Origin: Owenia fusiformis
Lineage: Eukaryota; Annelida; Polychaeta; Sabellida; Oweniidae
NCBI GenBank assembly: GCA_903813345.2
Contig: CAIIXF020000002.1
Span: forward strand, 8,451,555-8,515,554
DNA length: 64,000 nt
Direction: 5' to 3'
Shown here: positions 2,322-64,000 of the stretch, piece by piece
Layout: every line of letters starts with the position of its first letter
Position numbering within the stretch: the first letter of the stretch is position 1
Position numbers and translations under genes: made by a program
The notes under the pieces: generated by a model
The model's input: the letters and a program-made list of their open reading frames with translations, nothing else
Told to the model about the DNA's origin: nothing
The model's database searches: none

Positions 2322-3361
2322 TTATGTCTGTAAACTTTTGACACAGAATTTACACCATAAGAAAAAAGGCATATCAACGGTGTCGTTAGGAAATGGCTGT
2401 TGGTGTGGAAATGCGATCGAACCATCCTGCACCATCTCCAAGAATTCCGATGCATTATAGATCCTGGCATCTCCACTTGAACCATATCCTGAGATTATAC
2501 AAGAGTAAGAGGATAAAATATTGTCAGTATACATTGCAAATATAGCTATAATTGTATTAAATCTATATAATTACAAAATTAATGCAGTAACGTATGTAGA
2601 GTTTACTCACCACCCAGATCACACCACACGAACTTGTAGTCTGAGTCGACAATTCCCAGTAAGATGATGCTGTTGAAACCCTTATAATTATAATATAAGG
2701 AACCAGAGCTATTAGGCTTTCTGATGGCTATGTGTTTGCCATCAATTGCACCAACGCAATTTGGAAAGTTCCACTTCTCGAGGAAACCATCAGCCAATTG
2801 TTTCCATTCTTCAGGTGTGGAGGGGGCAGTCATGACTTCATCAACATATTCGTCACATATAGCTTGACAGACTTCTCTTACCACTACAGAGAGGGTATTC
2901 TCGGCAACCCGCCAGGAGTACTGCATGTCAGAGTACTTGGCACCAGAAACCAGGTGGCGAATAGTGGCAGCTAGTTTGAGGCCTGGACCTAAAGGCTCTC
3001 TGTACCAGCTATGTTGTTTCCATAGCCGAGGACGGACCCTCTCAAAGATTTCGTCATCCATTTCTGTTGGCATACAGAGGAACTTTTTGAATGTTCTGGG
3101 GTCCTCTCTTCTCAGCTCCACCATGAGCTGATCATAAATGCCGAATTGGCGCCGTCTCTCTGGATTCAACCATTGTCTCCTCCAGATGCCACGTCCTCTG
3201 GCTCCCCTTCTCCGCCTAAAACGGCCTCTGATGAACTCATGAATGTTAAGTTGCTGCGTTAAAACTTCTTGCTGGGCCATAGCAGCCACATACTGCAGCC
3301 TCAGTCGATCTGTGTCTTCCATGACAAAAGAATTATTTGATTTAATTTGGTATTCTCTCAA
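2322..3361 (-). pseudogene. Truncated PIF/Harbinger (HARBI1-like) transposase
   Basis: Two exons can be joined on the minus strand: 2611-3361, ending in a GTGAGT donor, and 2322-2488 after a CTCAG acceptor. The first exon has an Arg-rich N-terminal part and then the DDE_Tnp_4 start. GAIDGKHI carries the first catalytic Asp, followed by YYNYKGFNSIILLGIVD. Joining gives DLGGYGSSGDARIYNASE, the block with the second Asp. After a PFPND..MPFFL block the frame runs into unrelated residues and a stop. The usual downstream D.AFPL block and the third acidic residue are missing, and a minisatellite begins 40 bases beyond. In the family this nuclease cuts and pastes DNA at 3-bp TWA targets. This copy looks inactive. 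A domesticated HARBI1 gene with further exons is the alternative, but none was seen to the left. Confidence 0.8.
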
Positions 3362-24762: not shown

Positions 24763-25007
24763 CCGTGAATTGAATTGTCAATACAAAAGCAATCAAATTT
24801 GCCAGATTGGACCATGGACCATTTTTCTTTCATAAGAGTGTGTGGGGTTTAAGTTAGATATTTGCATTCTTATTGGTTTTTAGGATAAATAATAGCCACG
24901 GGCCTATATAAATTACTATTTTATCATAAAAGCTAATACTCAAATTTTATCCCTAACTTTTAAGATAATTGTAAAAATGATTGTCGAAAGTAACTCCCAA
25001 AATTATT

Positions 25008-25079
25008 TGACCCCGACGTGATTCGAACACGCAACCTTCTGATCTGGAGTCAGACGCGCTACCGTTGCGCCACGGAGTC
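25008..25079 (-). tRNA. tRNA-Trp (anticodon CCA), copy 1
   Basis: On the minus strand it reads GACTCCGTGGCGCAACGG...CGTCGGGGTC plus A. The acceptor stem pairs GACTCCG with CGGGGTC through one G-U. The loop between CTGA and TCAG contains CCA. The D arm GGCGCAACGGTAGCGC and B box GTTCGAATC are intact. Confidence 0.92.
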
Positions 25080-25168
25080 AATTGATGATGCACGATCGTC
25101 AGATATCATGTTATAACAGGAAGCGGTACCATATGTTAGATTCACAGCACATTTCTTGTTGACGAAAA

Positions 25169-25535
25169 CTTTGTCACCATCATTGATATGTTACAGGCCC
25201 GAGTCACCATCATTGATATGTTACTGGCTCGAGTCACCATTATTGATATGTTACAGGCCCGAATCACCATCATTGATATGTTACGGGTCCGAGTCACCAT
25301 CATTGATATGTTACAGACCCGAGTCACCATCATTGATATGTTACAGGCCCGAGTCAACATCATTGATATGTTACAGGTCCGAGTCGTCACCATCATTGAT
25401 ATGTTACAGGCCCGAGTCACCATCATTGATATGTTACAAGCCCGAGTCACCATCATTGATATGTTACAGGTCCGAGTCATCACCATCATTGATATGTTAC
25501 AGGTCCGAGTCGTCACCATCATTGATATGTAACAG
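25169..25535. repeat. 30-bp minisatellite (CACCATCATTGATATGTTACAGG...)
   Basis: Twelve copies of a 30-base unit, some lengthened to 33 by an inserted GTC or ATC. The sister block at 28080-28140 has only two units, so the array expanded, or contracted in the other copy, after the duplication. Open frames here are repeat artefacts. Confidence 0.92.
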
Positions 25536-25833
25536 GTCCGATAACCTGTTCAAAAGGAAACATTAAACATTCACTCATGATCAACTCGTTTTTCACAAAT
25601 TAAATCTTTCCTCTTGAGGGACGAACGTCCGCCATGTTAGTAAGATCATGGGCTTTCAAGAGATCGTTGAAAGCCCATGGTAAGATTGTTGGTTACTTTT
25701 AACATCTTACGATAGTTACGCGCCGGACAAAGAACAAGTGTGCTCACATTGTCTACTGTTGATACGGTTTGTCAATTCGTCCCTCAATCCACCAAAAGGA
25801 AATTTGTATCGATAACGCAATACTAAAATAATT

Positions 25834-25905
25834 TGACCACGACGTGATTTGAACACGCAACCTTCTGATCTGGAGTCAGACGCGCTACCGTTGCGCCACG
25901 GAGTC
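25834..25905 (-). tRNA. tRNA-Trp (CCA), copy 2
   Basis: Same gene as copy 1 with TTCAAATC in the T arm. The 3' acceptor strand is CGTGGTC instead of CGGGGTC, leaving one C-T mismatch in the acceptor stem, so function is less certain. Confidence 0.82.
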
Positions 25906-26145
25906 AATTGTATCACTAGATGAAACGTCAGATATCACATTATGACAGGCAGTGGTATTTACCCTGGTGTTTAGATAAACATTATTTTTGATCAACAGCA
26001 CAATTCTTGTAGACCATTTGTCGCTCCTATGCATCCCATAGGGAACCTATGAATTGTTAAAAACACGATGTTTTTTGGTTAATTTATGACGATAAGGGTT
26101 TCCTGAAGAGATTTAGCTGGGTTGGACAAAAAGTTAGTTTGGGGA

Positions 26146-27530
26146 GTGTAACATGTATTCAGCATCAAGAGTCAAAGATTCTACAAAATTCAAAATCTAT
26201 GATTGCTATAACATTCAGAGCCTGGGATGGGTAGTGGGTACAGTCTCTATGAGTCTAAGATGGTACAGTCTCCAGACCCTTAGATGATACAGCCTCTAGA
26301 TATAACATGGGATCTGTCTCCAGAGATGGTAGAGCCTTCAGAGGCTGATTGCTATAGCATTCAGAGCCTAAGATGGGTACAGTCTTCACGAGTCTCAGAT
26401 GGTGCAGCATCCATATATAACATGGGATCAGTTTCCAGAGTCTAAGATGGTACAACCTTCAGACCCTGAGAAGGTTCAGCCTCCAGAGATGAGAAAACGG
26501 TTTATTAGTCTATGAGTATAACAATTAGTCTAATATGGCTTCAGCCACAAGAGTCTAATGGGTACATCTTCTTCTATGATGGGTAGAACCTCCATTTCCA
26601 AGAGTTTAAGATGGTCCAGCCTCTATCATCAAAAATTGACACAGCCTAGTGTCTACTGTCTAATATGGTACAACCTCCAGAGTATAATATGAATTCATCC
26701 TCCAGAGACTAATATGGTGAAGCATCAGAGTACAATATGGATTCAGCCTCTAGAGTCAAAGATGGTACAGCCACCAGTCTATGATTTGTATGAAAATCAG
26801 AGTATAAGATGGGTAAAGACTCCAAGAGTCTTTCAATAGTAAAGCCTGCAAATATCTGAGATGGTATAGCCTCCAGAGCCTTTGAGAAGTTCTGGGAACA
26901 GCCTTCAAGAGAAGTTGGTACACTTTCCAGATGCAGTGTCTATGATGGGTAAAGCCTCCAAGAGTCTAAAATAGTACAGCCTCTCCAGAGTCTATGATGG
27001 GTATAGTCTCCCAGAGTCTAAGATGGTACAGCCTCTAGAGGCTTAGAGGGGTTAGCCTTAAGTGTTTAATGGGTACATCCTCAATAGTCTACAATGGGTA
27101 CAGCATCCATAATCTAAGATTCATACTGCCTACAAAGTCTAAGTTGGTACATATTCTAGAGTCTAAGATGTCAAAAATCGACATTTTGTCACATATAACA
27201 CCAATCTGTGGTTAATAAATGGGTCTAATATGGTACAGCCTCTACAGTCTCAGAGGGTTAAGCCTCTAATTTTTAATCGTACATCCTCCAGAGTCTACAA
27301 TGGGTATGTTATCCATAGTCTACATAGTCTAAGTTTGTACATCTTCTAGATGTCAGGAATCATCATTTAGTCACATATAACATCCATCTCTGTGATTAAT
27401 AAATGGGTCTAAGATGACACAGCCTCTAGAGTCTTAGAGGGTTTAGCCCTTAATGTTTAATGGGTACATTCTCCAGAGTCTACAATGGGTACAGCATCCA
27501 TAATCTAAGATCAATACGTTACGATGTAAC
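26146..27530. repeat. Degenerate minisatellite between the two tRNA-Trp blocks
   Basis: Units of roughly 25-30 bases of the type AGAGTCTAAGATGGTACAGCCTCC are scattered, mutated and reshuffled from about 26220 to 27520. Larger sub-blocks also recur: an ATGGGTACATCCTCCAGAGTCTACAATGGGTA segment appears near 27070, 27285 and 27460. No gene. Confidence 0.75.
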
Positions 27531-27917
27531 TTTGTACCAGCCATAGCAGTACGTTCCCGTTACCGACCGTGGATAGTACAATAACGTTATTACTATTATT
27601 ACCACCGTTAATGCCCAGGGCTGAAATAGCAAATTTGAAATAGAAAATCTTACGCACTGAACGATATCACTTTTCCCGGGAAACATAGCCGGGCGGATAA
27701 TGTCATTATTGCCCGACTAAAGTCATTAATGCCCGACACAATATCGCTCACGTCAATATAGCAATTTAAATGCCTTCTCAACTAGTACTAAAACCCCTAG
27801 AACAGGCCCTGCAAGGTGGTCATAATACGGTTTATCAATTCGTCAAAAGCTTCGAATTCAATACCCTTCAATACATCAAAAAGAGATTTGTATTTATAAC
27901 GTAATACTAAAATGTGT
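27531..27917. other. Non-coding interval
   Basis: No gene seen. GCCCGACTAAAGTCATTAATGCCCGAC at about 27710 repeats a GCCCG/TCATTA motif also present 20-40 bases earlier. A short TAATACGTTACGATGTAAC motif sits at about 27510. Confidence 0.4.
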
Positions 27918-27989
27918 TGACCCCGACGTGATTTGAACACGCAACCTTCTGATCTGGAGTCAGACGCGCTACCGTTGCGCCACGGAGCC
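27918..27989 (-). tRNA. tRNA-Trp (CCA), copy 3
   Basis: Starts GGCTCCGTGGCGCAACGG on the minus strand and ends CGGGGTCA. The acceptor stem pairs with two G-U wobbles. The anticodon CCA, D arm and T arm are intact. Confidence 0.9.
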
Positions 27990-28019
27990 AATTGTATACG
28001 TAAGCACGTCAGATATTAT

Positions 28020-28752
28020 ATTATGACAGGCAGCGGTACCATATGTTAGATTCACAGCACATTCCTTGTTGGCGAAAACTTTGTCACCATCATTGATATG
28101 TTACAGGTCCGAGTCGTCACCATCATTGATATGTAACAGGCCCGATATAACCTGTTCAAAAGGAAACATTACACTCATGATCAACTCGTTTTCCTCAATT
28201 TAAATGTTTCCTCTTGAGGGACGAACTCTCCGTCCGCCATGTTAATAAGATCATGGGTTTTCAAGAGATCGTTGAAAGCCCATGGTAAGATTGTTGGTTA
28301 CTTTTAACATCTTCCGATAGTTACGCGCCGGATAAAGAAACAGTGTGCTCCCGTTTTCTGTTTTATACGGTTTGTCAATTCGTCCCTCTATCGACCAAAA
28401 GGAAATTTGTATTTATAACGTAATACTAAAATATCTTGACCCCGACGTGATTTGAACACGCAACCTTCTGATCTGGAGTCAGACGCGTTACCGTTGCGCC
28501 ACGGAGTCAATTGTATCACAAGGGGAAACATCAGATATCAGATTATGACACCTAGGCAGTGGTATTTACCCTGGTGTTTAGATAAACATTATTTTTGATC
28601 AACAGCATAATCCTTGTAGTCCATTTGTCACTCCTATGCATCCCATAGGGAACCTATGAATTGTTAAAAACACGATGTTTTTTGGTTAATTTATGACGAT
28701 AAGGGTTTCCTGAAGAGATTTAGCTGGGTTGGACAAAAAGTTAGTTTGGGGA
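28020..28752. repeat. Segmental duplication, copy B
   Basis: Sister of 25120-26145: same minisatellite (two units), same microhairpin, a tRNA-Trp gene, and the same tail through GGGTTTCCTGAAGAGATTTAGCTGGG. Beyond 28752 the two blocks differ. The tail resembles the MITE at 49512-49891. Confidence 0.85.
28437..28508 (-). tRNA. tRNA-Trp (CCA), copy 4
   Basis: Minus strand GACTCCGTGGCGCAACGGTAACGCG...CGGGGTCA. The acceptor stem is intact. It has one G-to-A change in the D region relative to the other copies. Anticodon CCA. Confidence 0.9.
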
Positions 28753-29854: not shown

Positions 29855-29920
29855 ACGATATGGCATATCAATTTTTTCAGAAAAAATTACATGGTGAAAG
29901 ACGTTTTAGCAAAACAGCAG

Positions 29921-29992
29921 TTCCCTCACCGGGGATCGAACCCGGGCCACGGCGGTGAGAGCGCCGGATCCTAACCACTAGACCATATGGGA
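29921..29992 (-). tRNA. tRNA-Glu (CTC), array copy 1
   Basis: Minus strand TCCCATATGGTCTAGTGGTT...; the loop CTCTCAC gives anticodon CTC. The 3' acceptor strand is TGAGGGA, leaving one A-A mismatch with TCCCATA, so it may be a weaker gene. Confidence 0.82.
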
Positions 29993-30085
29993 GTTGGCTA
30001 CGCCGCCTCATATCGCATATCTATTCCTACAATATCAGTCAAAACAAAACCGGAATGAAAGATTAACGTTTTAGCAAAATAGCAG

Positions 30086-30157
30086 TTCCCACACCGGGAA
30101 TCGAACCCGGGCCACGGCGGTGAGAGCGCCGGATCCTAACCACTAGACCATATGGGA
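30086..30157 (-). tRNA. tRNA-Glu (CTC), array copy 2
   Basis: Complete 72-base tRNA: the acceptor TCCCATA pairs with TGTGGGA, the anticodon loop is CTCTCAC, and the B box is GGTTCGATTCC. Confidence 0.93.
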
Positions 30158-30249
30158 GTTGGCTATGCCGCCTCATATCGCATATCTATTCGTACAGATC
30201 AGCCAAAACAAAACCGGAATGAAAGATTAACGTTTTAGCAAAATAGCAG

Positions 30250-30321
30250 TTCCCACACCGGGAATCGAACCCGGGCCACGGCGGTGAGAGCGCCGGATCC
30301 TAACCACTAGACCATATGGGA
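30250..30321 (-). tRNA. tRNA-Glu (CTC), array copy 3
   Basis: Identical to copy 2 over the tRNA. The spacing of 164 bases from copy 2 defines the tandem unit. Confidence 0.93.
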
Positions 30322-30413
30322 GTTGGCTATGCCGCCTCATATCGCATATCTATTCGTACAGATCAGCCAAAACAAAACCGGAATGAAAGATTAACGTTTT
30401 AGCAAAAGAGCAG

Positions 30414-30485
30414 TTCCCACACCGGGAATCGAACCCGGGCCACGGCGGTGAGAGCGCCGTATCCTAACCACTAAACCATATGGGA
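30414..30485 (-). tRNA. tRNA-Glu (CTC), array copy 4, slightly degenerate
   Basis: Same frame of 72 bases and anticodon CTC, but with TTTAGTGG in place of TCTAGTGG and GATACGGCG in place of GATCCGGCG. The changes affect the A box and the region next to the anticodon stem, so function is uncertain. Confidence 0.8.
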
Positions 30486-30578
30486 GTTGGCTATACTTCC
30501 TCATATCGCATATCTATTCGTAACAGATCAGCCAAAACAAAACTGGAATGAAAGATTAACGTTTTAGCAAAATAGCAG

Positions 30579-30650
30579 TTCCCACACCGGGAATCGAACC
30601 CGGGCCACGGCGGTGAGAGCGCCGGATCCTAACCACTAGACCATATGGGA
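30579..30650 (-). tRNA. tRNA-Glu (CTC), array copy 5
   Basis: Complete 72-base gene identical to copies 2 and 3. The spacing from copy 4 is 165 bases. Confidence 0.93.
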
Positions 30651-30741
30651 GTTGGCTAAGCCGCTTCATATCGCATATCTATTCGTACAGATCAGTCAAA
30701 ACAAAACCGAAATGAAAGATTAGCATTTTAGCAAAATAGCA

Positions 30742-30775
30742 TTTCCCACACCGGGAATCGAACCCGGACCATGGC
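30742..30775 (-). pseudogene. Truncated tRNA-Glu at the right end of the array
   Basis: TTTCCCACACCGGGAATCGA then ACCCGGACCATGG keeps the acceptor and T arm only; unique sequence follows. It marks where the tandem array breaks off. Confidence 0.75.
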
Positions 30776-52004: not shown

Positions 52005-53520
52005 GTGTTGCCTTTAACTGAATTCTTCCCGGGGAATTCTTGCATTGCCTATATTTTGCCTTTAAACGACGAACTCACAATAAGCCAATTTGCACGTTTG
52101 CGCGAGCTGGGTTGTTGTTTTATCAAAATTCAATAGGGATCAACCGATGGCACGTGACTAGAGTATTTTAAAGTAGTCTATGTGAAAATCCAAATGGATC
52201 AAAATAATGTTATTTATGTTTTTCTAAGAAACATTTTGTATTTAGAAAAGATCAATACTTCTTGTCACATATTCCTGCATTTCGAAGAATGCATTTCCGG
52301 AATTCCAAACAATAATTTGACTTCTAGCACTCACAAAGTTTACTTTGACTTATCTTCAATGATGGTTGTGAAAAGGACCGTTAAAAGTAAAGACATTCAA
52401 AACAGCTTTCTGTCAAGCATCCAAAACAGAATTAAATCAGATAAAAGTATATGGAATTAGAGGATTATGAAGACTCCCATACGTGCCCATTATTGTCGGT
52501 TTCATCATGTTTCACCTCTTTCTTAAGCTTTTCAAGTGGAAGTTCTTCTGGTTTCACGTACGTAGTTCGTGATAATTGTCAGGTACGCATATACCATTAA
52601 TTTACAACCATAAATTTACACAAGGCATTAACATGACAAAATGTCACCACTTAGTTGAAGCAAGATAAAAATACCTTTTTGACCTTGAAGAGGTCATTAA
52701 AGGTCAAATCTATTTTGACCTTGAGAATGTCATTGAAGGTCAAATCTATGGTCAGATATGAACTGTTGAGAACTTGTCTGATGATTTTGAAAAAATGGTC
52801 AATTTGAAGCAAGTTGAAAAAAGAGCTTTTTGACCTTTTTTGACCTTGAGTAGGTCACTGAAGGTCCAATCTCAAATCTAAAGTCAAATTTGAAATCTTA
52901 AGTCAGATTTCAACTTCTGAGAACTTGTAGATGATTTTGAAAAAAATTGGTCAATTTGAAGCAAGTTGGTCTTTTTGAGCTTTTTTGACCTTAAGAAGGT
53001 CATTGAAGGTCAAATCTCAAATCTTAAGTCAGATTAGAACTTCTGATAACTTATAGACTGAGAGATGATTTTGAAAAAATGGTCAATTTGAAGCAAGTTG
53101 AAAAAAGACCTTTTTTGATCGTGAAAAGGTGATCAAAGGTCAAATCTTAAATATAAAGTCAGATTAGAACTTCGGAAAACATGTAGATGATTTTGAAAAC
53201 AAATTGATATACGGTGACACTACGGTTCCCAACGGCTTTTCCTCTTCATCTTGATTGACCTTACGTTTTACATTTTTCATTGTTGAGGAAACGGACCATT
53301 GGGGATATCCGAAACGTCCTGTTTAGTAAAATAAAGGTTGTGAAAAGAAGAAAAAATTTTTTTGTGATTTGATTACCCAACCTGAAGAACATGTTTAAGA
53401 GTGTTGCCTTTAACTGAATCTTTCCCGGGGAATTCTTGCATTGCCTATATTTTGCCTTTATACGAGGAACTCACAATTAGCCAATTTGCACGTTTGCGTT
53501 TGCTGGTTGTTGTTTTCGTT
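52005..53520. repeat. Pair of 120-bp direct repeats with a second AAGGTCA array between
   Basis: Positions 52005-52125 and 53401-53520 are about 90% alike (GTGTTGCCTTTAACTGAATC/T..CCCGGGGAATTCTTGCATTGCC). Between them, 52650-53210 holds four to five degenerate units of the repeat also seen at 43680-44130, with AGGTCA direct repeats spaced by four at 52691-52706 and 52997-53012. An open frame at 52182-52460 has no recognisable motif. Confidence 0.7.
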
Positions 53521-54684: not shown

Positions 54685-55385
54685 GGTTTGGCTGGAAACC
54701 TGTAGACAAGTCTTGAAAGTGAAGATTTTAGGACGGAAAATTCAAAATGGCCACCTTAAGATCTACCCAGAATGCTCAAAAACTAATCAGTTCTTGACGT
54801 TGATATGTAGAAACATCCCTGAAAATTTCAGATGAATCCCTCAAATGGTTTGGCTGGAAACCTGTAGACAAGTCTTGAAAGTGAAGATTTTAGGACGGAA
54901 AATCCAAAATGGTCACCTTAAAATTTACCCAGAATGCCCAAAAACTAATCAGTTCTTGGCGTTGATATGTAGAAACATCCCTGAAAATTTCAGATGAATC
55001 CCTCAAATGGTTTGGCTGGAAACCTGTAGACACTTGAAAGTGAAGATTTTAGGACGGATAATCCAAAATGGCCACCTTAAGATTTACCCAGAATGCCCAA
55101 AAACTAATCAGTTCTTGACGTTGATATGTAGAAACATCCCTGAAAATTTCAGATGAATCCCTCAAATGGTTTGGCTGGAAACCTGTAGACAAATCTTGAA
55201 AGTGAAGATTTTAGGACGGAAAATCCAAAATGGCCACCTTAAGATTTACCCAGAATGCCCAAAAACTAATCAGTTCTTGACGTTGATATGTAGAAACATC
55301 CCTGTAAATTTCAGATGAATCCCTCAAATGGTTTGGCTGGAAACCTGTAGACAAGCTGAAAAGTGAGATGCCGCCCGCCCGCCTG
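54685..55385. repeat. 161-bp tandem repeat, about 4.3 units
   Basis: GGTTTGGCTGGAAACCTGTAGACAAG recurs at about 54685, 54847, 55008, 55168 and 55330. Each unit runs through TTTTAGGACGGAAAATCCAAAATGGCCACC and GATATGTAGAAACATCCCTG. The last unit ends in a CCGCCCGCCCGCCTGCCCGCCC tract. Repeats of this kind often belong to an element terminus, but none is proven here. Confidence 0.9.
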
Positions 55386-56729
55386 CCCGCCCACCCGCCC
55401 GTCAAGCTGACTACAATATCGTATCCTTTGTTAGGTAGATAAAAAATAGAAACATATGTACGGTACAAGACCCAACTTTTGCATATTTCAGATAGTCAGG
55501 TACAGAGGTATAATGTGCAGTAGAGCGGTGGCCTTTTGTAATTTAGGGAGTTTCAGCCATGTTAATTTTTCCGAAAATAACATGGCAGAGAAGCATCAAA
55601 ATATAAGAGGCCACACATATGATAGCCAAACTACAAAACTAACTGAAATATACAAAAGTTAGGTCTTGTACATTTGTTTACTTTTGTATATTTTTTCATA
55701 CACTGTTGCAATATGGTCATTTTATTGCTTTTTTAATTCAAAGTACTAAATAGAATTTTGAATCAGACTGTACAGGTAGGTCATCTCAGTGAGAAAACCA
55801 CAAAACAAGGGAACATTTTTATTAGCTAGCATTTTGCAAATTCAACTTCAGAATGACGATTTGATATGATCGTATTTTATGTCCAACTCATTAAATTATG
55901 AGGTACTACATGTACTTTATATTTAAATGAGTTGGCCATAAAACAGCAATGAAACCGTCAGCCGATAGTTGAATTTGTGAATGCTACCTTAGATTTATGG
56001 GGCAGAGAACATGATATCAGAATAAATTCTGTAACAAGCATTACAAAATACAGTAATTTCTAAAAACCTCATTTATTTTACTACATGCACTATTCCGAAT
56101 ATAACATTTAATTGTAAAAATATATAAAATGTAAAAATATATTTGCGTGTATGTTTTGTGCAAACATGCAGTCAGTCTATACATGTGCCATGTAATAGTT
56201 ATTTCCCCCTAAAACTTTCATGCTAAATATTTTAATTTAATATCAATTAATGAGTACAGTTAATTATAAAATAATTAATAATGGAAACTTAAATTGTTGA
56301 TATGGCACAGAATTAGTATATTGCGATTTCAGTCAACTGCAAGTTAAACAGTTAAGCCAGTATTCACATCTTTAAAAAATAAACACAAAAATTGACCATG
56401 TATGAAAACAGACATGGCAAGGAATGGTAAGACCAATTGTCGCAAATATTTTGAAATCGCATAATTTTGGAAAATATATTTTCTATCTACACACAATATT
56501 TAAGTCAATCTTGTAGTATATCATTTTTCTAGTGTCATTGGATTAAGTACCTTGTGCAATATGACATCATTCCTCTTATGACATCTGATTAAGTCCATTG
56601 TGCAGTAATAGTATAAAATCATTCTTATGACACCAGATATTATTCAAAATCACTCCTGATATTATATGAGATTGAATCCATTATGCTGTAAGACATTATT
56701 CCTCTTATGACATCAAATCAGGATTCCTC
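55386..56729. other. Interval downstream of the MGST2-like gene, including its likely 3' UTR
   Basis: No gene. It holds a family M1 MITE (55828-55985). From about 56525 to 56729 there are degenerate repeats of ATTCCTCTTATGACATCWRATYAGG, derived from the stop-codon end of the MGST2-like exon. A minus-strand AATAAA lies at about 56062-56067. Confidence 0.5.
55828..55985. mobile_element. Foldback MITE, family M1
   Basis: AGCATTTTGCAAATTCAACTTC faces GATAGTTGAATTTGTGAATGCT, with centre ATATTTAAATGAGTTGGCCATAAA shared with the other members. Confidence 0.7.
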
Positions 56730-59700
56730 TTATGACATCAAATCAGGCCCTCCAACAGACTTGTAGAGCCTAATGGCCTCCATCTTGAGATTGACTCCTG
56801 CGTAATTCAAGAGTCCCATCTGCAGTAAACCAAATAGTGACATCACTAGTCCTAATTGTAGCGCCATAACACTCATTTTGAATGGACCAACCCTGTCAAA
56901 AAGAAAGAAAACACATAAAGCACATGGAAAAATGTAACAATTCTACAATGCTAAATTCCCATTAACACAGAGTTTAACTATCATTAGAATATGTAACCAC
57001 TTAATGCAATAACACTCATTTTGAATGGACCAACCCTGTCAAAAAGAAAGAAAAAACATAAAGCACATGGAAAAATGTAACAATTCTACAATGCTAAATT
57101 CCCATTAACACAGAGTTTAACTATCATTAGAATATGTAACCACTTAATGCCATAACACTCATTTTGAATGGACCAACCCTATCAAAAAGAAAAAAAACAC
57201 ATAAAGCACATGGAAAAATGTAACAATTCTACAATGCTAAATTCCCATTAACACAGAGTTTAACTATCATTAGAATATGTAACCACTTAATGCCATAACA
57301 CTCATTTTGAATGGACCAACCCTGTCAAAAAGAAAAAAACACATAAAGCACATGGAAAAATGTAACAATTCTACAATGCTAAATTCCCATTAACACAGAG
57401 TTTAACTATCATTAGAATATGTAACCACTTAATGCCATAACACTCATTTTGAATGGACCAACCCTGTCAAAAAGAAAGAAAAAACATAAAGCACATGGAA
57501 AAATGTAACAATTCTACAATGCTAAATTCGCAGTAACACAGAGTTTAACTATCATTAGAATATGTAACCACTTAATGCCATAACACTCATTTTGAATGGA
57601 CCAACCCTGTCAAAAAGAAAAAAACACATAAAGCACATGGAAAAATGTAACAATTCTACAATGCTAAATTCCCATTAACACAGAGTTTAACTATCATTAG
57701 AATATGTAACCACTTAATGCCATAACACTCATTTTGAATGGACCAACCCTGTCAAAAAGAAAGAAAAAACATAAAGCACATGGAAAAATGTAACAATTCT
57801 ACAATGCTAAATTCCCATTAACACAGAGTTTAACTATCATTAGAATATGTAACCACTTAATGCCATAACACTCATTTTGAATGGACCAACCCTGTCAAAA
57901 AGAAAGAAAAAACATAAAGCACATGGAAAAATGTAACAATTCTACAATGCTAAATTCCCATTAACACAGAGTTTAACTATCATTAGAATATGTAACCACT
58001 TAATGCCATAACACTCATTTTGAATGGACCAACCCTGTCAAAAAGAAAGAAAAAACATAAAGCACATGGAAAAATGTAACAATTCTACAATGCTAAATTC
58101 CCATTAACACAGAGTTTAACTATCATTAGAATATGTAACCACTTAATGCCATAACACTCATTTTGAATGGACCAACCCTATCAAAAAGAAAGAAAAAACA
58201 TAAAGCACATGGAAAAATGTAACAATTCTACAATGCTAAATTCCCATTAACACAGAGTTTAACTATCATTAGAATATGTAACCACTTAATGCCATAACAC
58301 TCATTTTGAATGGACCAACCCTGTCAAAAAGAAAAAAACCACATAAAGCACATGGAAAAATGTAACAATTCTACAATGCTAAATTCCCATTAACACAGAG
58401 TTTAACTATCATTAGAATATGTAACCACTTAATGCCATAACACTCATTTTGAATGGACCAACCCTATCAAAAAGAAAGAAAAAACATAAAGCACATGGAA
58501 AAATGTAACAATTCTACAATGCTAAATTCCCATTAACATAATGTTAAAAATGTTGAAAGATTGATTAATTCTATTGAGGATCACAATATTGTAAGGTGAT
58601 AAATCACAATCTGCATGTTTACAAGATCATTTAATGTGGATGCCCAAAGAATTTTACATCATCCAAACAGAAATATTTGACAATGCATTTAACGTGTCTC
58701 CTTATCTATCTATATCGCAAAGTCTCTATCGCTTTAACATGCATATAACAAAGTCTCTATCATTTTAACATGTATATAACAAAGTCTCTATTGCTTTAAC
58801 ATGTATATAACAAAGTCTCTATCGCTTTAACATGCATATAACAAAGTCTCTATCATTTTAACATGTATATAACAAAGTCTCTATTGCTTTAACATGTATA
58901 TAACAAAGTCTCTATTGCTTTAACATGTATATAACAAAGTCTCTATTGCTTTAACATATGATCTTACCTCGATTTGGCATCTTTGATGTAACCATTGAAG
59001 TAATTCTGCCTAGCATAGATATACAGCACCCCAACTAGGGCAGCAGGAACTAAAATAGAGTAAAACTTGTCTTAGTGAACACCTCCAATAAACACTTGTT
59101 ACATACCTTACTGACTTCTGCTTAAAGTCCCGCTCTGTAGTGAACACCTACCTAGTACAGTGAACATATTTTTGTGGCTCTATAGGTGATAGGTGTTTAC
59201 TGCACACAGGTACACACTGTACATAGTATTTCATCTTACGATATAGAACAATTGAAATTGGTGTTACCAGAGTTGCGAATCCCCGTTCGTATGGTCGGAA
59301 TTTTACGACCAATAAATTGAAAATACTTTTAACGTTCATGATAAAATGCAACTACCTCTTAGTTATTGAAAATAATAACAACAGTGAAACAATTCTTCAA
59401 ACGTTAAAATGCAAACAGCTAGTCACAAAAATAGTGGGCCATTGGAATACAGTGATCTCTCTAGCATTAAAGCAAGTGAGCTTACACCCACCTGAAATTC
59501 TGAAAACAGGCTTAAACCCATTTGCACCCACTTGAAAATGAGAAAAATCAAGAGAAATCACTTTTTGGTTTTACATGAAAGGAATAAATGGCCTTTAATT
59601 AAAGACAAGTAGACCACCTTTACAATGGTGAGTGGAAACAAATTCAAGCTAATACATGTAGATAAGATACATGTGCCACCAAGGGACTTTGTTTTCTATA

Positions 59701-60605
59701 ATTTCAGTCAAGGAGGATTGGCTTCCAGGATCGAGACTAAATATTTTCTAATAATGAAAACATTGCAATGTCTTTATTTTCTGAAATTACAGCGGACTAT
59801 AAGTTCAAAATAAACAATTCAAAAGATTTGAATCAATATCTCAATCATTTCTTGTCAGTTTTGGAATTTTTCGTTTGGAAATAAGACTAAAATTCACTAT
59901 TCAAATGTCGGAGTGAACAAAATGGCGGCTGTTTGATTTCAAATTTTGTAATCACGACATGCACATATATGGCAAAAATATCGATGTTGCACTCTGGGAG
60001 CCAATCCTCCTTGACTTCAGTTTAAAAAGCCTGAATGGGGAAGATATCAAGATATAGCTGTCACTCAAATCATCACAATTTACCTTGATGGAGAAAGATG
60101 GCTGATATCCACATTGTTACAATAAATATAGGGTAGAACTCAAGGCCATTCTGTCTGAAATGTAAGAAAATATAACTTAGGACCACTGAAGCTTTAAACT
60201 ACTTACTGGGAATTATTTTTTGAAAAGTTACCAATTGACCAGTTTTTATTTTTCTATTTTTCTTAAATAGAAATTTTAACTAGGATAAGAGATGTGCTAA
60301 TTATGGGCTTAAGCTTGTATTTGCGAATGCAACTTTCGGCTGTCTGCTACCGGATTAACCTATGAATTAACCTGTCATTTTGAAGACGATTTAAAGAACA
60401 ACCTATTAGTCAGCGAACAGAGATCGCATCCTTTTTTATGTCACGGTAACAATCAATTATAATAAAGTCGCTCGGCTGAATAAGTTTTAATTGGTCAATA
60501 CTTACTGAGCTCTGATTGTGCGGAGGAACTCAGGAGGCCCCTCCATAGATGGGGGATCTATTTTAAACTTCATTCGTGACATACCCATTCTCTTTGCATG
60601 AGTAG
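56730..60605 (-). CDS. MGST2-like: Microsomal glutathione S-transferase 2-like (MAPEG family), last four exons
   Basis: On the minus strand: 60506-60605, 60084-60154, 58968-59049 and 56730-56892 (stop TAA), all with GT-AG borders and matching phases. The joined product (about 137 residues here) shows PEFLRTIRAQ then QNGLEFYPIFIVTMWISA. This is the R-A-Q-Q-N..EFYP signature of MAPEG proteins, with the Arg, Asn and Glu used in glutathione binding. LVGVLYIYARQNYFNGY follows, close to the RxxYFxGY block of MGST2, FLAP and LTC4 synthase, and then a last membrane span. MGST2 enzymes conjugate glutathione and can make leukotriene C4 in the ER or nuclear membrane. The first exon, with the first membrane span, was not found between 60606 and 64000 and may lie beyond the window. 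The last intron contains a large array of acceptor duplications. Confidence 0.9.
56864..58537. repeat. 143-bp satellite in the last MGST2-like intron; each unit copies the splice acceptor
   Basis: Eleven tandem units of 142-143 bases follow the true acceptor. Each contains, on the minus strand, a polypyrimidine tract with ..CTTTTTGACAG (or GATAG) and the first about 31 coding bases of the last exon (GGTTGGTCCATTCAAAATGA..). Exon-like edges run from 57035 to 58463. Units differ by only a few bases, so the array is young or homogenised. Confidence 0.95.
58715..58957. repeat. 31-bp minisatellite (AACATGTATATAACAAAGTCTCTATTGCTTT)
   Basis: About eight units with CATGCATATAAC and ATCATTTT/ATCGCTTT variants arranged in a higher-order pattern. 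The array ends 10 bases before the donor of the 58968-59049 exon (minus strand), within the same intron as the 143-bp satellite. Confidence 0.92.
59450..59545. mobile_element. Fragment of a MITE related to 60697-60895
   Basis: GTGATCTCTCTAGCATTAAAGCAAGTGAG is the inverse of the right end of the element at 60697-60895 (CACTTGCTTTAATGCTGGAGAGATCAC). Only one end is present. It lies in the intron between exons 58968-59049 and 60084-60154. Confidence 0.55.
59706..60016. mobile_element. Foldback MITE in an MGST2-like intron
   Basis: AGTCAAGGAGGATTGGCTTCC faces GGGAGCCAATCCTCCTTGACT. The interior (AAATGGCGGCTGTTTGATTTCAAATTTTGTAATCACGACATG) resembles the arms of the long foldback at 15619-16682, so they may share ancestry. 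Confidence 0.75.
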
Positions 60606-63600
60606 CTGGAATTATAATAAGAAATGCGTCAAAAACACTCATTTCCTGAGTGGTGAGGTGATTTTAAAATGAAAAATCATGAAATATTGATATGAAGTGA
60701 TCTCCCCAGGATTTTTTCTCAGGTGGTTGCGAAATTGTTATTTTCACAATTACATGTAAGACCAAAATTGGCCGAAATATGCCAATTTTTCATGATTTTT
60801 CTCATTTTCACATGGATTTTCAGGTGGGTGCAAGCCTATTTTCAAATTCTCGGGTGTTGCACTCACTTGCTTTAATGCTGGAGAGATCACCAGATAGAGA
60901 AGCTGTTCATCTGTATATATTTAAGGTCAAGGTCACGAAGATGGCCAAATCCCCGGCCAAATCACTGCCTCAGAGTATCAAGTTCTTAAAATAGTAAGTG
61001 AGGGAATGGTCTAAAGTCTTGTGCATACACCCATAACTCCAAACATAACCCCAAAAAGACGAAAATGTTGGTAGAAAATGGAAATTTAAAAAGTTTTAAA
61101 CTTTGTTTAATTTTTGAATTGAGAATAATAGGCCCTACCCTCTTTCAAAGAACTCTGTCATCTGAGAGTAAATGTTGTAATATTCTTTACATTTACAAGT
61201 AAGAAGAAGGAGTCTTCCTTTGAAACTCGATGGGGGGGGGGTTACTTCATCGTGGTGCTTTTTTACCATGGGGCTATTTTAATCTATGCAGTCCACCAGA
61301 CACAATCTTAATCCAAAATGACCAAACCTGGAAATTTGAATGATCGGCCATTGTCGAAATAACCCCCATGGTCGAAGTAACATATACATCAACCAAGTGA
61401 AATAAGAACCAGAACAATGTCGACGCCAATCAAACTTTTGACTGCAATCGACAGTCAGTTACTGTGACTTGGCCCTAAAAATCTGAGTGCAAGAAAGTCA
61501 CTAGAGGCAATCTGCGCGAGATTCCATTTTTTGGTTCGGTTTTTAGGGCATGCGCAATAAATCCAGCAATTTAATTGGTTAAAATTATTATCACGCATGC
61601 GCAATTAATAACTTATAGGAACATTTAATTTGAGATAGATGTCACTTACGTTCATTTTTTCACAGCAGTCCCTACCCATGATGCACCATATAGTGCGGGA
61701 ATATTTTTGTTTATTGTCAAAACAAAAAGTATACACCCAAAACAAATGTAATTAGGGGTTCAGTCACTTCTGGGTTTAGTCCGGACAACCTCAAAATTAT
61801 GCAATTACAGCTATTATATGCCAACTTACTATGTCATGTGTTATTATTTCAATATAGATGTACTTGTCACCTATGATTCTATGTTTATTTACTTCATTTT
61901 TTTAATTTTGGCAATTTTAAGACAGAAAAACCATCAAAATATGTAAAAATAAGCATATTTCTGCTTATTTACTCCTCCAAGATGGTGGCCAGAAATTTTG
62001 AATGTCACACCATTTTTCCAACTCAAACCCTCCATTGATTATGAAATATGAAATTCAGAAATCTTAACAACCAAGTTGTTGTATCTAATAGTTTACACTC
62101 TGGGTGTCACAAAATGATTTTATAGCTGACATCAATAGATATTCCTGATTGAAGTGAAGACACTTTGTTCTAAAAATCCTCATATTTTGGACTTATTTTC
62201 TCCCAGATGTCTGGATACTCTTGTAAAACAATGAAGATTCATTTTTGCAATAACTTTGCAACCATTAGTTCAATTTTAAATCCGCAAAGAGCACTATAAT
62301 CCTGAATTTCACCTCTTCAATATTATCATTATTGCAAGTAATATAGAAGTAAACCAATGACCCGTACTCCTTAAACAAAATTAATAAATCTAAGCATATA
62401 ATTTCTGCATATTTTCTTATTGTATCAGATGCTGGCACAGTTTTGCCGGAAGTTTGCAAGAAGTAACTTTTGGCAATGCAGTATGTTAGAGTAACCTAGT
62501 AGGTGTAAGAAAATATAAGGTGATGGCCTTTAAAGTGGTAAAAACAATTTTCACGGCCGAATTGGACTTTAATTCCTGCGATTTCAGGGGGTACTATAAG
62601 ACTATTTCATAACATAAAGGATATAGTTGCTATTGTTCTGCTTTCTACAGCACACATTACTAGTCCAAAGATGAATAATATCCTAAAGTTATAGGCCGAT
62701 ATCTGTATTAGTCTCAGAAATATTGCAATTAATAGGAAAAAAATATGCAATTTTAGTCATTTTTAAGCCTCACGTATCTTATATTTGTAGCTTCCAGCAA
62801 AAGATGGCAGCTTAAATAGCTCAAAATTGTTTTCTAAAAACTAATTCAAGCTTTGTTTGATATTGTAATACAATTATAATAATGATAATGTACTATTTAT
62901 GATTTTTAATATGACTTTACAGTACCCTACCCCTGGGAAGTGGGCGTGGTCAATGTTATCATTTTGCAGCATGCAATTAAAAACTTATATTGATAGAAAG
63001 CAAATCAATGCATTTTTAACATTTTCACTTGTTACTTGACATTGTAATTCATTCATTACTAAAATATAGGACTCTACATATTTTATATATACGTTTTCAA
63101 TTTTGTACAATGTATCATGATGAAATCTAATAGGCTGGTTCATTTTCAGTGTTCACTAACGCATGAAATGTAAGTCACAGTGTTTCCAAATTACCTTTGC
63201 AATGAGAAAGTACCACAAAGACTACATAATATGAGCAGTTTCAAGGTCCTAATACTAATACTTACCGATCTATCGGCGTTCAAAAATAGAGAAAGCTGTC
63301 GTGAGTGCAGTTTTAACTTTTAACTAACTTTGAACTGAAACTGCTGCTTAATGAATATTTTTCTCAACATCTGTGACTTTTTTAGACCCCAAACATAAGA
63401 TACCATGACATAATGCTACCAAGTTCTGATATTAGAAGTTTCAGAGCTCTAGATCAAATATTCACTTCTGCATGTACTTTTGAAAAGAGGCAAAAGGACA
63501 AAAAACCTGTCAGATATCGTGAAAAATATGACAGATGCACTATTCAGAACAATTTATCTCTTAAATGTTACTTTTATTTAATTTCTGATTCTGCCTCCAG

Positions 63601-64000
63601 TTAGTACCACCAATAATACATATGAGAAGACTTAACGTCATAGTAAGTGGAAGTACAGATCTATTGGCTTCTGAAAATGGGAAAAGCTGTAGCAAGTATG
63701 ATTTTCACCAGTTTTTCATCTAAGACTGCAACTTTCTGAATTTTCTTTTTACAAACTGCACAGTAAGACCAAAGACATTAAAGGAAACCTGGTCATTGTA
63801 CCACCAATAATAGGTAAAAATAATATTGGTAATATATACCAAGTGTTTACTTTAATTCCAAGGCATCTGAATTGATAAATAAATGAAATCAGTACTTTAT
63901 TGTATCTTGGAACAAAATACACTGTTTGAATGCTTAAGCTTGACATCACAGTATCAAGTGAAAGATACGTTGTTTTATACCACTCTAAGTCCAATTACAG
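60606..64000. other. Right-hand stretch, no coding exon recognised
   Basis: It should hold the first intron and perhaps the first exon and promoter of the MGST2-like gene. I looked for a minus-strand ATG plus hydrophobic span ending in a phase-1 donor and found none convincing. A MITE with GTGATCTCYCCAG ends lies at 60697-60895, and a G-run at about 61232. Confidence 0.45.
60697..60895. mobile_element. MITE with GTGATCTCYCCAG-type ends
   Basis: The left end GTGATCTCCCCAGGATTTTTTCTC and right end CTTTAATGCTGGAGAGATCAC are inverted over about 13 bases. The interior carries CAGGTGGTTGCGAAATT and CAGGTGGGTGCAAGCC motifs. A second copy fragment is at 59450. Confidence 0.55.

Follow-up and report, generated by a model that had tools for sequence, protein, structure and literature searches.

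It has long been asked, usually with engineered duplicates, which of several equal splice acceptors wins: the nearest one, the last one, or the one that belongs to a proper exon. The question is raised here by the last intron of an MGST2-like gene in the 64-kb stretch of DNA that was analysed (the window), in which the original prediction had placed a satellite with eleven decoy acceptors ahead of the real one. Mapping of the twelve acceptors, together with an array called by Tandem Repeats Finder (TRF) at this place, bore out this arrangement (Table 1). The questions are how the array arose and what becomes of the decoys.

The evidence is drawn entirely from the window, from protein libraries, and from published papers. 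The window is AT-rich (36% GC) and carries an intron-bearing gene of animal type. On the minus strand, exons a, b, and c and the last exon, read from 56892, join to give an open MGST2/LTC4S-like protein with a MAPEG domain (Pfam PF01124, E 9.3e-15). Among the 12 solved sequences listed, human MGST2 (6ssr) was the best match (E 6.7e-28), followed by LTC4S. Judged from these matches, the gene is a member of the MAPEG family, in its MGST2/LTC4S branch. The GC content of exons a to c is 0.38–0.47, and exon c ends at 58968, exactly where the upstream exon had been predicted to end. Lengths of 100, 71, and 82 nt are likewise those of the middle exons in human LTC4S and FLAP; a literature search on LTC4S and MGST2 exon sizes added nothing of use. 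For the first exon, four weak candidates were found in 60606–64000, none of which was accepted, and the window thus contains only part of the gene. The last exon retains an open, MGST2-like frame, and its stop codon is followed by two poly(A) hexamers, ATTAAA at 56241 and AATAAA at 56077. A 25-nt unit that contains the last codons and the stop codon is present in two tandem copies at the end of this exon, followed by weaker copies deeper in the 3′ untranslated region (56541–56747).

Table 1. Positions of the gene, array, and flanking features in the window.
Feature	Position	Strand	Details
MGST2-like coding exon a	60506..60605	-	100 nt; ag/gt borders, open frame, MAPEG match
MGST2-like coding exon b	60084..60154	-	71 nt
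MGST2-like coding exon c	58968..59049	-	82 nt; donor GAG/GTAAGA; ends in the first two bases of a split Arg codon
MGST2-like last intron	56893..58967	-	2075 nt
31-nt minisatellite	58711..58957	-	8 copies; starts about 10 nt past the donor of the last intron
Perfect inverted repeat at upstream edge of array	58533..58547		15 nt; 7-nt arms, 1-nt loop
Satellite	56863..58538	-	105-nt segment in 12 copies, with an identical 38-nt filler in each of the 11 gaps
Eleven decoy acceptors, span of first exon bases	57035..58463	-	
Decoy first exon bases	58463, 58320, 58177, 58034, 57891, 57748, 57606, 57463, 57321, 57178, 57035	-	
Real copy	56863..56967	-	75 nt from the 3′ end of the intron, 30 nt from the 5′ end of the last exon
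Real acceptor, first exon base	56892	-	
Real last exon, coding part including stop codon	56730..56892	-	

TRF reports the satellite over the range given in Table 1 with a period of 143, 11.7 copies, and 98% matches. The predicted unit, a pyrimidine tract, an AG, and about 31 coding bases, was recovered with one correction: tract and AG are present in 12 of the 12 copies, and the exon start is 30 nt long, not 31. The repeated 105-nt segment thus consists of 75 intron nucleotides (pyrimidine tract and YAG) and 30 coding nucleotides of the last exon. The distance from acceptor to acceptor is 143 nt, and twice 142 nt. The decoys match the real copy in 102–104 of the 105 columns. Only seven columns vary, namely 56, 57, and 61 in the tract, 73 (the C or T before the AG), and 6, 9, and 103 elsewhere; accordingly, the acceptor triplet is CAG in nine copies and TAG in three (units 1, 3, and 10). 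The mean pairwise difference over the shared columns is 1.8%, or 1.0% without the tract columns 55–71. Over the shared 105 columns, unit 1 is identical to unit 3, units 4, 5, and 6 are identical to one another, and unit 7 is identical to unit 9, so that the 12 copies represent eight distinct unit types, in mixed order.

Chance resemblance between the array and the exon start, which the original prediction had named among the outcomes that would speak against it, is ruled out for the present sequence. A 41-nt junction probe (at most 3 mismatches) found 12 places, eight with 0 and four with 1 mismatch, versus a mean of 0 matches in 100 shuffles. By this comparison, the array copies share descent with the exon start. 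With an intron end and an exon start in tandem upstream of the real acceptor, the locus is a duplicated junction of the CBS 844ins68 type; with a splice site in the repeat unit and the real site as one of the copies, it is also a splice-site VNTR of the ABCA7/IFI6 type. About 91% of the last intron is tandem repeat (1646 + 247 nt of 2075 nt). Both of its ends are arrays, the 31-nt minisatellite at the donor side and the satellite at the acceptor side.

Splicing of exon c to a decoy restores the split Arg codon (AG/G). As predicted, the frame then stays open for a short distance and stops: in 11 of the 11 decoys the Arg is followed by VGPFKMSVMALSGYIF and by the consecutive stop codons TAA TGA TAG, with a change from M to I in unit 11, the decoy peptide of which is VGPFKMSVIALSGYIF. 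The real acceptor yields a stretch of 54 residues that begins with the Arg and runs up to the stop codon, and in the predicted decoy product the last 42 residues are traded for 5. The Arg is residue 82 of the query and aligns to residue 110 of both the MGST2 chain 6ssr_A and the LTC4S chain 5hv9_A, and, by the listed ranges (7–106 on 29–128), to residue 104 of LTC4S 2pno_A. Because it aligns to Arg104 of LTC4S, which we take to be the residue that activates glutathione, the predicted decoy product would keep the glutathione-activating Arg. By homology, the 42 residues lost in this product would hold the fourth membrane span.

The acceptors themselves differ little. Between positions −20 and −5, 14 of 16 nucleotides are pyrimidines at the real acceptor and 13–15 of 16 at the decoys, compared to 11–12 of 16 at the three other acceptors of the gene that were seen. 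Among the 6424 AGs on both strands of the window, 19 combine at least 14 of 16 pyrimidines with a YAG, and 11 of these 19 are acceptors of the array, the real one included (unit 2 has 13 of 16). No special RNA fold was found either for the unit (z −0.39) or for the real junction (z 0.61). Runs of the GAR-GAR type, indicative of purine-rich enhancers, were found neither in the real exon nor in the single decoy examined, 57748; the first 100 nt contain 8 and 5 purine-rich trinucleotides, respectively, too few to use.

What follows the acceptors is different. The array contains none of 12 types of poly(A) hexamers, and hence no unit has such a signal of its own. It also contains no GTRAG donor, and thus no usable donor of this type lies between the duplicated acceptors, as would be required for intron gain by tandem duplication. 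The best donor match among its 156 GTs is 6/9, which is a soft criterion, since the real donor of exon a also scores 6/9, though it reads GTAAGT. In the absence of poly(A) hexamers and GTRAG donors, transcripts probably do not terminate at a decoy, nor would a decoy readily serve as a well-defined internal exon. The GC content of nucleotides 31–100 past the junction is 0.429 for the real acceptor versus 0.271–0.286 for the 11 decoys; hence, in GC, the sequence past the decoys is intron-like, and that past the real junction is exon-like. A value of 0.429 or more is found in 23% of the 70-nt tiles of the window and is, therefore, not rare. Taken together, the intron-like GC past the decoys and the lack of poly(A) hexamers and usable donors argue against efficient decoy use. 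As far as can be read from the sequence, a decoy-spliced message would run through the later units into the real exon. The suggestion that each unit could be an alternative terminal exon is thus retained only for transcripts that reach the poly(A) site of the real exon; as self-contained terminal exons, the units fail, having neither poly(A) hexamers nor GTRAG.

The edges of the array bear on its origin. The 38-nt filler is identical in 11 of 11 cases between copies and is absent before the first and after the last copy; judged from this pattern, a single duplication of the junction that already contained the filler was probably the starting point of the array. A perfect simple duplication is disfavoured because it would give whole units, unlike the observed array of 1676 nt, that is, 11 units plus 105 nt. 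The edges would fit the repair of a break in which 105 nt (75 of intron, 30 of exon) were duplicated and a 38-nt filler was left at the join. Unequal exchange could then have multiplied the 143-nt unit, giving eleven extra copies, and maintained their likeness. Exchange within the array would also fit the identity of units that are non-adjacent (1 and 3, 7 and 9) or form a run (4 to 6). The inverted repeat, inside which the upstream edge falls, is suggestive only as a possible break site and was picked after the fact; there are 66 inverted repeats with 7-nt arms and loops of 0–3 nt in the window, or about 0.02 expected per 21 nt.

Several sources of the filler were considered and rejected. Its alignment to the exon continuation, as if it were a diverged piece of the real exon, was matched by 229 of 1000 shuffles, and its alignment to the upstream flank by 482 of 1000. 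The first codons of the filler, GCA TTA, and those of the exon, GCG CTA, both encode Ala-Leu, which was taken as chance. The best candidate templates in the 9 kb around the array and in the whole window were equalled by 75 of 100 and 9 of 30 shuffles, respectively, so that no template was detected, and the first 28 nt of the filler gave 0 exact matches in viral contigs.

Tandem arrays are found elsewhere in the window as well. When the TRF rows were merged by hand, there were 26 arrays with a total length of 7.05 kb, four of which have units of 143–164 nt (29901–30775, 52751–53169, 54685–55366, and 56863–58538). A length of 143–164 nt is near that of the DNA on one nucleosome. The array at 29901–30775 has 5.3 copies of a 164-nt unit and contains five tRNA-Glu (CTC) genes. 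The long-period arrays other than the satellite have periods of 145, 162, and 164 nt, and these, one of them on a tRNA-Glu gene, suggest that array formation is common in this DNA irrespective of the underlying sequence. Four tRNA-Trp genes lie among minisatellites with 20–33-nt units at 25007–28509, and a minus-strand ORF at 2603–3361 with a match to DDE_Tnp_4 (E 1.4e-05) presumably encodes a Harbinger-type transposase.

For the fate of such acceptors, known systems can be compared. The VNTR in intron 18 of human ABCA7 is, like the present array, built in tandem on a real splice site: its first GT is the donor of exon 18, and a shifted donor one unit further in is used (PMC5954066). There, longer arrays go with more skipping of exon 19 and lower expression, the use of the shifted donor is unaffected by length, and two frameshift isoforms, the second of which we read as a retained unit, make up 14 and 2% of the transcripts (PMC5954066). 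Unlike the present array, the ABCA7 repeat, as described there, has a 25-nt unit on a donor, not on an acceptor with exon sequence; furthermore, its polymorphism and RNA were measured, whereas the present array is known from one genomic sequence. Human CBS 844ins68 is closer in kind, a 68-bp duplicated portion of an intron/exon junction in which the distal site is strongly favoured in RNA; the passage available calls the sites donor sites, the title that it cites 3′ splice sites (PMC2630376). On this description, both loci have a duplicated junction with candidate sites close together, CBS with one extra copy and the present gene with eleven. In a potato RdRp gene, the duplicate reaches, as here, from the 3′ part of an intron into the 5′ part of the following exon and includes a putative branch site, a tract, and an acceptor; the duplicated junction gave rise to a new intron that uses a cryptic GTAAG donor (PMC4974935). 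The present array differs from this account in the lack of GTRAG, in its eleven extra copies, and in its filler. An 8-bp duplication of a donor in OCT1 changed 38–52% of minigene transcripts, but only 0.3–0.6% in liver (PMC8137991). To judge from its title alone, one more system resembles the present one in that a repeat supplies multiple copies of a splice site, although these are donors and not acceptors. This is the IFI6 (6-16) minisatellite, reportedly one with multiple splice donors (Turri 1995, by title). A literature search that covered few subscription papers found no array of acceptors with exon starts.

From the CBS, potato RdRp, OCT1, and ABCA7 precedents, predominant use of the last site with some leak would be the likeliest outcome. 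We favour, with a probability of roughly 60%, a recent tandem array that was derived from the gene's own intron/exon junction, is tolerated rather than selected, and leaves mostly the last acceptor in use. Transcription of the sequence meets eleven same-phase acceptors about as pyrimidine-rich as the real one, and the spliceosome would mostly pick the last, because only the real acceptor precedes exon-like sequence and then poly(A) hexamers. In a minority of transcripts, a decoy would be joined instead; these would reach a stop 16 codons past the Arg, would no longer encode the fourth membrane span, and would have a long tail that extends into the real exon. If anything, the array would be a drag on full-length product. 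Some points stand against this explanation. The new intron of potato RdRp implies that both duplicated acceptors are usable, in ABCA7 isoform change and lower expression do accompany repeat length, the exon-like GC value is common in the window, no template for the filler was detected there, and three different consecutive stop codons past the decoy frame would suit a selected terminal exon.

These stop codons, the common end peptide (with its one M to I change), and the phase, YAG, and tract kept in 11 of 11 decoys are what would be expected if decoys were used regularly, the truncated protein or the loss of full-length message were functional, and array length set the isoform ratio. The human ABCA7 VNTR, the length of which goes with exon skipping and expression, also renders it plausible that array length affects expression and splicing here, albeit without such an effect on the repeated site itself: the shifted ABCA7 donor is not used more in longer arrays. 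Given this, the absence of poly(A) hexamers and usable donors from the array, and the intron-like GC past the decoys, we regard an isoform switch tuned by copy number as improbable. The copies are too alike for any selection test, and copies this alike show no readable sign of selection. Still less probable is a splice rheostat, in which each added copy would compete for the single donor and shift the product from the full-length form to an Arg-keeping form without the last span, allowing fast and reversible tuning. Somewhat less doubtful, but still unlikely, is an array that is unselected and damaging, in which decoys often win by their proximity to the donor and little full-length enzyme is made, as in a partial loss-of-function allele or a decaying gene. 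The acceptors met first are about as pyrimidine-rich as the real one, and, by simple arithmetic, about 1/12 of the product would be full-length if the 12 competed equally. However, splicing can bypass an upstream duplicate, as CBS 844ins68 shows, and the last exon is open and MGST2-like, which is weak evidence, since a young array leaves little time for decay. Finally, the near uniformity of the array would be compatible with an assembly artefact, with too many or too few copies assembled around a smaller real duplication, but eight unit types in mixed order and two 142-nt steps are unlike simple stutter, and this explanation appears the least credible of all.

The tolerated array that we favour is thus a variant of known splice-site repeats, new among them in having acceptors with exon starts, eleven extra copies, and a filler; it is probably young and neutral. 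Its twelve near-identical, same-phase acceptors facing one donor constitute a natural test of acceptor choice. Scattered marks (CAG/TAG and tract variants) separate some of the copies in genomic reads or reads of unspliced RNA, and the copy used can be read from the length of the retained tail, so that a usage profile by position is possible. With such a profile, splice-site VNTRs, which are known for donors, would come to include acceptors that carry coding sequence.
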